A stretch of DNA of 64,000 nt from Deltaproteobacteria bacterium (GTDB lineage Bacteria; Myxococcota_A; UBA9160; UBA4427), in assembly GCA_002719955.1 (NCBI GenBank), contig PBFW01000071.1, forward strand, positions 1 to 64,000, in the 5' to 3' direction. This document shows positions 15,397 to 18,859 of the stretch, in pieces. The stretch's first letter is position 1; each line of letters opens with the position of its first letter. The position numbers and the translations under genes were made by a program. Under the pieces are notes generated by a model that was not told the origin of the DNA, ran no database searches, and was given only the letters and a program-made list of their open reading frames with translations.

Positions 15397-15482
15397 GCCC
15401 GGGCTCCGCTCGGTCTGGTGGCCCACGGCAGCCAAGTGGCGATGGCCCTGACTGCTTCCAGATCGCAGAGTGGAGGTTTCCG

Positions 15483-16206
15483 ATGCCCGATGGGAAAACG
15501 ACGGACGGGAGCGAACCCTTTCGCGCGATGCTGGTCGAGTTCGCGGAGAGCGGCGAGGCGGGCAAGGTGGAGGGGCTCGACCTCGACGACCCCAAACGGG
15601 CGATGCGCGCGCCGGGCGCGGTCGAGACGGTGATGGCGATCCAGGCGATGGAGGCGGATTTCCGGGCCGGTCCCGGCCAGCCCGCGCCAGATTTTACGCT
15701 TCCCTACCTGCCTGGACACGGTGGTTTCGAGGGGAGAAGGTCCGCCTGTCGGAGCGTTTCGAGAATCGGCTCGTGGCGCTGATCTTCGGAAGCTATACCT
15801 GATCGCCTTTTCGGGCCCAGGCTGGGGCCCTCAATCGGACCTACGAGGCGTACAGGGATCAGATCGAATTTTTCACGATCTATTTCAAGGAAATTCATTC
15901 GACCGATGGCTGGCAGGTCGATGAGAACGTCGCGGATGGTGTGCTCATTCCACAGCACCAATCCTTCGAGGAACGCACCGAAGTGGGTCAGAGCTGCATG
16001 ATCAAGCTGGCGCTCGAGACGCTCGCCCTCGTCGACGAGATGAATGATGAAGTGGCTGTGCGGCCTATGCGGCCATGCCGGAGCGACTCTATCTCATCGC
16101 CCGGGGTGGCAAGATCGCCTATCGGGGTGGGATGGGGCCGATGTTCTTCCGGCCCGTCGAGTGAGAAGAGGCGATCGTGATGTGCCTGGAAGGGCAGGAC
16201 TCCTGA
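15483..16206 (+). pseudogene. Iodothyronine deiodinase-like selenoprotein (TGA Sec codon at 15800-15802), disrupted by apparent frameshifts
   Basis: Stitched translation: MPDGKTTDGSEPFRAMLVEF...PAPDFTLPYLPGHGGFEG/EKVRLSERFENRLVALIFGSYT-U-SPFRAQAGALNRTYEAYRDQIEFFTIYFKEIHSTDGWQVDENVADGVLIPQHQSFEERTEVGQSCMIKLALETLALVDEMNDEV/AYAAMPERLYLIARGGKIAYRGGMGPMFFRPVE-tga-EEAIVMCLEGQDS. Resembles deiodinase landmarks FGSCTUPSF, EEAHASDGW and YAALPERLYII. Confidence 0.8.
15803..15830 (+). promoter_or_regulatory. Candidate bacterial SECIS element
   Basis: After TGA (15800-15802): 10-nt spacer, GGGCCC stem, AGGCTG loop, GGGCCC stem; loop begins 16 nt after TGA with G at second loop position. Confidence 0.65.
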
Positions 16207-16297: not shown

Positions 16298-18664
16298 CTA
16301 TAAGCCCTTCGGCTTGGTTCCGATCACCTCGTCCACTTCTAGCTGGGCGATCTCTTCCGCGGACAATCCGAGTTCTGAAAGGATTTCGTGGTTGTGCTGT
16401 CCCATGGTCGGGCAGGGCGTTCGGTTCCAACGGTCGACCGTCGCGAACCGGAACGGCGGTCGAACGACCGGATGGATCCCGACGACCGGATGATCGACGT
16501 CTTCGAAGAAGCCGCGCGCGATAAATTGCGGATGCTTGGATTGGATTCGGGCATCCCACACGCCGGCCGCGGGAATCCCGACGGCCAATAACGCGGCGAC
16601 CGTCTCATCGAGCTCGCGGCCAGCGCACCAGCTGGCGAGCGTCTCATCGATCACCTGGTGCTTTCGTCGGCGCCCGGCATGGGTCGCGAACTCTTCGTCC
16701 TCGGCCCAGGTCGGGTTGTCGAGCAGGCGCTTGAGGGCCGCCCATTCCTCGTCGTCACGCACGACCAGGGCGAGCCATTTTTCGTCTCCGGCGCAGGCAT
16801 AGATGTTCTGTGGTGCGCCCTGGGGACCGCGATTGCCGTCGCGATTCAATTCGACGCCGTTCGCCGACCATTCGACCGCGAGCTCGGCGGCCGCATTGAG
16901 CGCGCCTTCGATCATTGTGCATTCGAGGAGATGTCCTCTGCCGCTGTGCTCGCGCTCGGCTAGTGCGACCAGGGTCGCGAAGGCCGCGTGCATGCCGGCG
17001 AGCGGGTCACAGGGGCCGCGTTGGATGCGCGGCTGGTCGTAGTCGTGCCCAGTGATCCAGGCGAGCCCCGACATCTGTTCCATCGTTTGGGCAAAGCCGA
17101 CGTTGTCACGCCAGGGGCCGGATAGGCCGAAGGCCGGCATCCGAACGACGATGCATTTCGGATTGATCTCGTGGATATGCTCCCAATCGAGACCGAAATT
17201 CTCGACCACCCGCGGTGAGAAGTTCTCGATGAAGACGTCGCATTCCTTGATCAGCTCCTTGCAGAGCTCGAGTCCCGTGGGATCCGTGAGGTTGAGGGTC
17301 AGGCCGCGCTTATTCGTGTTGGCGGAGAGTGTGATCGCGCTGCGCTCCCACCATTCGCTCTCGCTGATGAACATGCCCCCCGCCATACGCATGCCATCGG
17401 GGCGTTGGATCGCTTCGACCTTGATCACGTCGGCGCCGAGAGAGGCGAGCATCTGGCAGGCCGAGGGGCCGGCCCACCAGGCCGTCGTGTCGAGGACTCG
17501 GATTCCAGCGAGGGGTAGGTTGGGTTTCGCGGCGGCGGACGGTGTTGTCCCCGCCTTGGGGCGCATGCGGGGCTCGATCGCGTCGGTGTGTTCACCGATC
17601 TCAGGAACGGCCTCGAAGGGACGCGGACCCTCGTTGTCCAGGAGATAGGGCGGGCGCGGCTGCAGAAAACCGCCGGTCGGGTTCTTCTTGAAGACGCCTC
17701 GCTCCTGAAGATGAACGTGATCGAAGACCGTCTTGCCACTGTTGACGGGTGCGACGGGAATTCGCAGGAGAGAGGCGCGTTCGACGACCTCGGCGGTCGT
17801 GTGTTGGGTCGTCCAGGCGCGGACGATCTCGTTCCACTCATCCATCCGGGCCATGCGCGTCTGCATCATCGCCCATTCGGTCTCGGCGAGGAGATCGGGT
17901 CGTTCGATCAGGAGCAAGAAGTCGGTGAATTGTTGATTGGTATTGGTGTTGAACCCGACCCAGCCGTCGAGGGTGGGTTCGATCGAGGGCAATTCGACCG
18001 AGCGCGGACCACCGATCGGCTCGGGTCGCCCATTCAGGTGGTCCATCAGGTCGACGTAGGTGGTCGATCCGATATTCATGACCTCGCAGAGCGAGAAATC
18101 GATGTGTTCGCCTTGCCCGGATTTGCGTGCGCCACGTGTCGCTGCCAGTGCAGCCACCGCCGCGAAGGTGCCACCGATCCATTCGGTCGTTTGACCTCCG
18201 CACATCACGGGTGGCTGACTCTGGAGGCCACGCGTCGAAACCGCGCCGCTATTGGCCTGGATCGTCAGGTCGGCACAGGGCTGACCGGAGAGCGGTCCGT
18301 CGAGCCCATAATCGGAAATCGAGAGCACGACGAGTCCGGGAAATCGCTCCGCGAGCGCACGCCCGTCGAGGTCAGCGTTTCCCGAAGTTTCGATGGCGAG
18401 GTCGGCGCCCGTGAGGAGCGCGTCGACATGCGGATCACCGGGCTCGCCGATGACCGATTTCTTCGAAGTATTGAGGAACTGGAAGAGGGGGCCATCCTTG
18501 CCCTGGAGATCCTGACCGCTCGCGCTCCATCGTCGCAGGCGCTCTCCCTCGGCGGGCTCGACCTTGATGACCTCCGCATGGGCGTCGGCCAGGAGCTTGG
18601 AGGCGTATGCTCCGGCGATGCGGTGACTGAAGTCGACGACGCGCAGCTCGCGCAGTCCTTGCAT
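16298..18664 (-). CDS. Double-domain CaiB/BaiF CoA transferase
   Basis: Two CoA-transferase III N-termini in one ORF: LRELRVVDFSHRIAGAYASKLLADAHAEVIKVEP and LAGIRVLDTTAWWAGPSACQMLASLGADVIKVEA. Confidence 0.9.
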   Translation of the reverse strand: MQGLRELRVVDFSHRIAGAYASKLLADAHAEVIKVEPAEGERLRRWSASGQDLQGKDGPLFQFLNTSKKSVIGEPGDPHVDALLTGADLAIETSGNADLDGRALAERFPGLVVLSISDYGLDGPLSGQPCADLTIQANSGAVSTRGLQSQPPVMCGGQTTEWIGGTFAAVAALAATRGARKSGQGEHIDFSLCEVMNIGSTTYVDLMDHLNGRPEPIGGPRSVELPSIEPTLDGWVGFNTNTNQQFTDFLLLIERPDLLAETEWAMMQTRMARMDEWNEIVRAWTTQHTTAEVVERASLLRIPVAPVNSGKTVFDHVHLQERGVFKKNPTGGFLQPRPPYLLDNEGPRPFEAVPEIGEHTDAIEPRMRPKAGTTPSAAAKPNLPLAGIRVLDTTAWWAGPSACQMLASLGADVIKVEAIQRPDGMRMAGGMFISESEWWERSAITLSANTNKRGLTLNLTDPTGLELCKELIKECDVFIENFSPRVVENFGLDWEHIHEINPKCIVVRMPAFGLSGPWRDNVGFAQTMEQMSGLAWITGHDYDQPRIQRGPCDPLAGMHAAFATLVALAEREHSGRGHLLECTMIEGALNAAAELAVEWSANGVELNRDGNRGPQGAPQNIYACAGDEKWLALVVRDDEEWAALKRLLDNPTWAEDEEFATHAGRRRKHQVIDETLASWCAGRELDETVAALLAVGIPAAGVWDARIQSKHPQFIARGFFEDVDHPVVGIHPVVRPPFRFATVDRWNRTPCPTMGQHNHEILSELGLSAEEIAQLEVDEVIGTKPKGL

Positions 18665-18859
18665 GGTCTCTCCCTCGATCGTTGTCGCGTTCGCCCGACG
18701 GGCGGTTTGCTCGATTTGATTCGCCGCGAGAGGGGTCTCGGGCATCACGATAATAATAGGGCGAATCAGCGGGCGAAAAAGCGCTCCGGAAAATTCATGG
18801 CCCCGGGGATGCAACCGGCAAGATGCGCGCAGTTGCCCCTGCCAGCATCGAAATGGGAG

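Follow-up and report, generated by a model that had tools for sequence, protein, structure and literature searches.

Bacterial deiodinase-like selenoproteins were first described in 2005 from the Sargasso Sea, together with bacterial SECIS elements (Zhang et al., PMC1088965). A possible redox role in bacteria was proposed by the authors, as thyroid hormones are unexpected in such organisms. The family was also found in later surveys (GOS 2008, PMC2398784; review, PMC13188914), and the review, from 2026, describes the functions of the deiodinase-like group as largely unknown (PMC13188914). Since the family was described in 2005, the locus reported here does not represent a new kind of gene.

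We analyzed a locus in a 64,000-nucleotide stretch of DNA (the window) for which an initial annotation had proposed an unannotated deiodinase-like selenoprotein gene. The deiodinase homology and the Sec TGA of that proposal stand, but the notion of a merely unannotated gene does not, given two uncompensated frameshifts, a Trp-to-TGA change and relaxed constraint. Our results favor, at a probability of about 0.86, a bacterial deiodinase-like selenoprotein gene that has recently become a pseudogene.

Reading frames and homology of the locus

The features of the locus are as follows.

15471-15475, + strand: probable Shine-Dalgarno sequence GGAGG, 7 nt ahead of ATG 15483 (sequence)
15483-15734, + strand: N-terminal part of the deiodinase-like gene in the original frame, MPDGKTTDGSEPF...LPYLPGHGGFEG (frame translation, tblastn)
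15732-15735, + strand: frameshift 1, one base fewer than in the orthologs (MAFFT DNA alignment with L032 and L019)
15737-16056, + strand: central thioredoxin-fold part in the second frame, holding the Sec codon (PF00837, NF038285)
15780-15782, + strand: TGA closing translation from ATG 15483, ahead of the Sec codon (translation)
15800-15802, + strand: predicted ancestral selenocysteine codon TGA (TGA in 18/18 subgroup relatives examined)
15813-15830, + strand: retained hairpin resembling a bacterial SECIS, GGGCCC-AGGCTG-GGGCCC, -13.8 kcal/mol (stem also found in relatives, with little synonymous change across it)
16057-16060, + strand: frameshift 2, TG duplicated, +2 relative to the orthologs (DNA alignment)
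16057-16206, + strand: C-terminal part in the third frame, YAAMPERLYLIARGGKIAYRGGMGPMFFRPVE-stop-EEAIVMCLEGQDS-stop (PF00837, NF038285)
16162-16164, + strand: nonsense change TGG to TGA (protein and DNA alignments; Trp in 18/18 subgroup relatives)

The initial annotation was built on ORF 15470-15802, which indeed ends with VALIFGSYT at TGA 15800-15802. Its reading of a continuation past this TGA was confirmed by translation: the same frame yields SPFRAQAGALNRTYEAYRDQIEFFTIYFKEIHSTDGWQVDEN, the peptide after the TGA running SPFRAQAG...EIHSTDGWQVDEN, and YAAMPERLYLIARGGKIAYRGGMGP is encoded downstream of the read-through part in another frame. The GTG at 15470 was rejected as the real gene start because the conserved N-terminus sits in the frame of ATG 15483; the 15470 ORF is out of the deiodinase frame over its first ~88 codons, and the relatives match the frame opened by the ATG. 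In tblastn comparisons with homologs of the same genus, the N-terminal part shows 68% identity to L032 (genome G001; residues 3-84) and 58% identity to L019 (genome G006). The presence of the deiodinase N-terminus in this frame implies a 1-base deletion upstream of the Sec codon. With one base missing near 15732-15735, translation from ATG 15483 (MPDGKTTDGSEPFRAMLVEFAESGEAGKVEGLDLDD...PDFTLPYLPGHGGFEG) therefore ends at TGA 15780-15782, and the resulting product of 99 residues stops upstream of the catalytic site. The two indels (-1 and +2) leave a net shift of +1, so that neither cancels the other. The ATG 15483 frame, the 1-base deletion, the 2-base nature of the downstream insertion and the in-frame TGA 16162-16164 had been overlooked in the initial annotation.

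Deiodinase homology was found on both sides of TGA 15800-15802, as had been claimed. Pfam PF00837 (T4_deiodinase) matched 15737-16060 with an E value of 1.9e-15 (57.2 bits; cut-off 27) and 16057-16206 with an E value of 8.1e-6 (25.7 bits; cut-off 27). NCBIfam NF038285 matched the central piece (E 6.4e-31, 108.1 bits) and the C-terminal piece (E 1.1e-12, 48.1 bits), scores that lie below its curated cut-off of 250 bits, as does that of the intact relative L019 (189.5 bits). A whole-genome search gave a deiodinase match with an E value of 2.7e-12 at this locus, the sole such locus in the host genome. Collectively, these three lines of evidence indicate that the original observation was correct and not due to chance. 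An intact homolog from the same genus matched the structure of deiodinase III (4tr3) with an E value of 1.4e-24 and that of deiodinase II (9h48) with an E value of 5.3e-20.

The selenocysteine codon, the hairpin and the Sec machinery

The TGA had been placed at the U position of deiodinases, and 18 relatives carry TGA at the same codon, with intact homologs coming from the same genus, family and order. The motif around the Sec codon in the extracted relatives is GSYTUPPF. Sec deiodinase-like genes are common in the order of the host: PF00837 matches occur in 29 of 80 genomes, and almost all of the full ones have exactly one TGA. Such genes would be overlooked wherever TGA is annotated as a stop.

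Codon usage around the TGA was compared in 19 rows, namely the window copy, L032 and 17 relatives with intact genes. Synonymous use is frozen in the 30 bases after the TGA (Arg CGG in 17/19, Gln CAG in 19/19), including codons just 3' of it (Ala GCT in 17/18, Gly GGG in 18/19), and the codons directly upstream of the TGA show freer synonymous variation than the downstream ones. The hairpin at 15813-15830 has an apical loop, AGGCTG, that contains a G, and a consensus fold is found in the relatives. The stretch after the TGA thus looks like a bacterial SECIS element. The subgroup sequences are related and the hairpin shows little covariation, and support for it is accordingly drawn from synonymous constraint and from its fit to the known element. 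A search with Rfam at gathering thresholds gave no match within the window.

The initial annotation had suggested a check for Sec machinery, and selA (C9:23728-25077), selB (C9:339407-341302), selD (C38:20451-21362) and tRNA-Sec (C15, anticodon tca) were all found in the host genome. tRNA-Sec scores above the gathering threshold in eight of the nine genus members, and the ninth, G004 (76% complete), lists only a lower-scoring match. The conserved TGA, the retained hairpin and the presence of selA, selB, selD and tRNA-Sec together argue that TGA 15800-15802 is an ancestral Sec codon, descended from a genuine one. In intact relatives, Sec would be inserted at the TGA by SelB and tRNA-Sec, directed by the hairpin just downstream. 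The intact members may be Sec-dependent redox or dehalogenating enzymes with a thioredoxin fold, and the ancestral product of the window locus would have been an enzyme of the same kind, acting in redox chemistry or reductive dehalogenation.

Probable decay of the copy and alternative readings

The window copy and L032 group together in the tree (100/93), and these two group with L019 (99/95). The same CoA-transferase gene lies downstream of both the window copy and L032, and L032 is, on tree and gene order, the syntenic ortholog. Of 64 alignment columns that do not vary among 17 intact relatives, six are changed in the window copy (P105L, P116S beside Sec, I128T, P189L, D196N and the W235 stop, in alignment numbering) and none in L032. 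Unique amino-acid changes number 22 in the window copy versus 13 in L032, a difference that is not decisive alone. The dN/dS ratio between the two copies is about 0.19 (0.132/0.710), compared to about 0.09 (0.078/0.851) for the neighboring CoA-transferase, which indicates a mild and recent relaxation of constraint. Since the ratio is still low, either decay set in recently or some of the lesions could be assembly errors.

The second of these possibilities, taken to its full extent, is that the gene is intact and functional and that errors of sequencing or assembly account for the frameshifts and the extra TGA. The host assembly, a draft, comprises 77 contigs and has an estimated contamination of 8.6%, and the low overall dN/dS and the retention of the Sec codon and hairpin are in line with such errors; the ortholog in G001 also carries a 1-base frameshift near its C-terminus, as drafts sometimes show. 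However, two separate indels and a stop substitution occur within about 430 bases, and the duplication of a TG dinucleotide is not a homopolymer slip. Errors also poorly explain the substitution of five other invariant residues, none of which is changed in the ortholog. Neighboring genes and CoA-transferase paralogs served to gauge how frequent indels are across the genome. Six neighboring genes match their Pfam families, each in one open frame, and each of the 30 CoA-transferase paralogs listed for the host genome has a single-frame alignment covering at least 378 of 400 residues, in a list that is biased toward unbroken copies. Outside the locus, the window shows an orderly coding profile. 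The three lesions in about 430 bases, combined with the invariant-site substitutions, favor true decay, and we consider assembly error an unlikely explanation.

Expression by recoding, with two programmed frameshifts and one or two TGA codons read as Sec, could draw on the Sec machinery of the host and the hairpin kept after the first TGA. It is nevertheless very improbable: the shifts needed would be unique to the window copy, whereas the relatives use one frame, and the -1 and +2 lesions restore no single frame. Moreover, the second TGA stands in place of an invariant Trp, and the fold downstream of it is weak (-8.2 kcal/mol). Equally hard to credit is that TGA 15800-15802 is an ordinary stop followed by the relic of a Cys-type deiodinase. 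Cys forms do occur in the order (L034, with TGC), but all 18 close relatives have TGA and neither TGC nor TGT, a conserved hairpin follows it, and tRNA-Sec is retained in the genus.

A recent pseudogene remains the best explanation, with the low dN/dS between the window copy and L032, the intact SECIS-like hairpin and the draft state of the genome counted against it. In the host genome, the gene would have lost one base ahead of the Sec codon and gained a 2-base duplication after it, along with the Trp-to-TGA change and several invariant-site substitutions. The full protein is probably no longer made by the window copy, which would have lost its function. The initial annotation had taken the absence of all Sec machinery as an argument for a relic; the machinery is present. 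The copy is best called a pseudogene. The locus would be a small, clear case of a selenoprotein gene decaying in a host that retains its Sec machinery, in which the Sec codon and a SECIS-like hairpin outlive the reading frame. A convincing TGA and Sec motif is no proof of a working selenoprotein gene.

Distribution and comparison with known systems

PF00837 matches are absent from six of the nine genus members, and in G003 the neighboring SnoaL-like gene directly adjoins the CoA-transferase gene, without a deiodinase gene in between. This patchy occurrence of the gene in a genus that retains tRNA-Sec is mildly interesting. The frameshift of L032 (1960-2050 of G001:C94, in the nearest genome) follows YLIA, unlike the lesions of the window copy, and is due to decay of its own or to an error in the draft. 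A family III CoA-transferase fragment (window 16298-18814) has 85 matches in the host genome, G000, a large expansion.

Elsewhere in the order, two genomes contain neighboring deiodinase-like pairs in opposite orientation (G074:C238:16582-17698 and G032:C473:141-1086), and three matches are listed in each of G064, G075 and G078. A second Sec subgroup (L031, L033, L037, L080, L081) has a hydrophobic N-terminal region, the motif GSYTUPPFSxGT, and a differing sequence after the TGA with a weak consensus hairpin only. The Cys form L034 (G053:C2) is distant and reads GSYSCPLF. A peptide-pattern scan of genome contigs returned only DUCN01000054.1 (labeled Myxococcales bacterium), an intact same-genus relative, probably because the patterns were not the most conserved ones; the relatives were drawn from the genome search instead. 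Plasmids were searched as well and yielded no match.

Compared to NCBIfam NF038285 (deiodinase_rel), the C-terminal deiodinase domain is alike: the window copy matches profile positions of about 195-345 and intact L019 spans 177-344, leaving the N-terminal ~175 model positions unmatched. Vertebrate DIO2 and DIO3 (PDB 9h48, 4tr3) share the GS-x-T-U-PPF, E-x-H-x-x-DGW and ERLY motifs in identical order. Vertebrate deiodinases remove iodine from iodothyronines, and a different role in bacteria, perhaps a redox one, is argued for in PMC1088965; the vertebrate SECIS lies in the 3' UTR, whereas the bacterial genes carry a SECIS-like element inside the coding region. The closest system is the bacterial deiodinase-like selenoprotein of PF00837, with which the window copy shares the T4_deiodinase match, the position of the conserved Sec TGA within GSYTUPPF, the SECIS-like hairpin just downstream, Sec machinery in the genome and, by homology, the thioredoxin fold. 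Intact relatives, in a single open frame save for the Sec TGA, occur at the level of genus, family and order, whereas the window copy is broken by two frameshifts and the nonsense change at 16162-16164.
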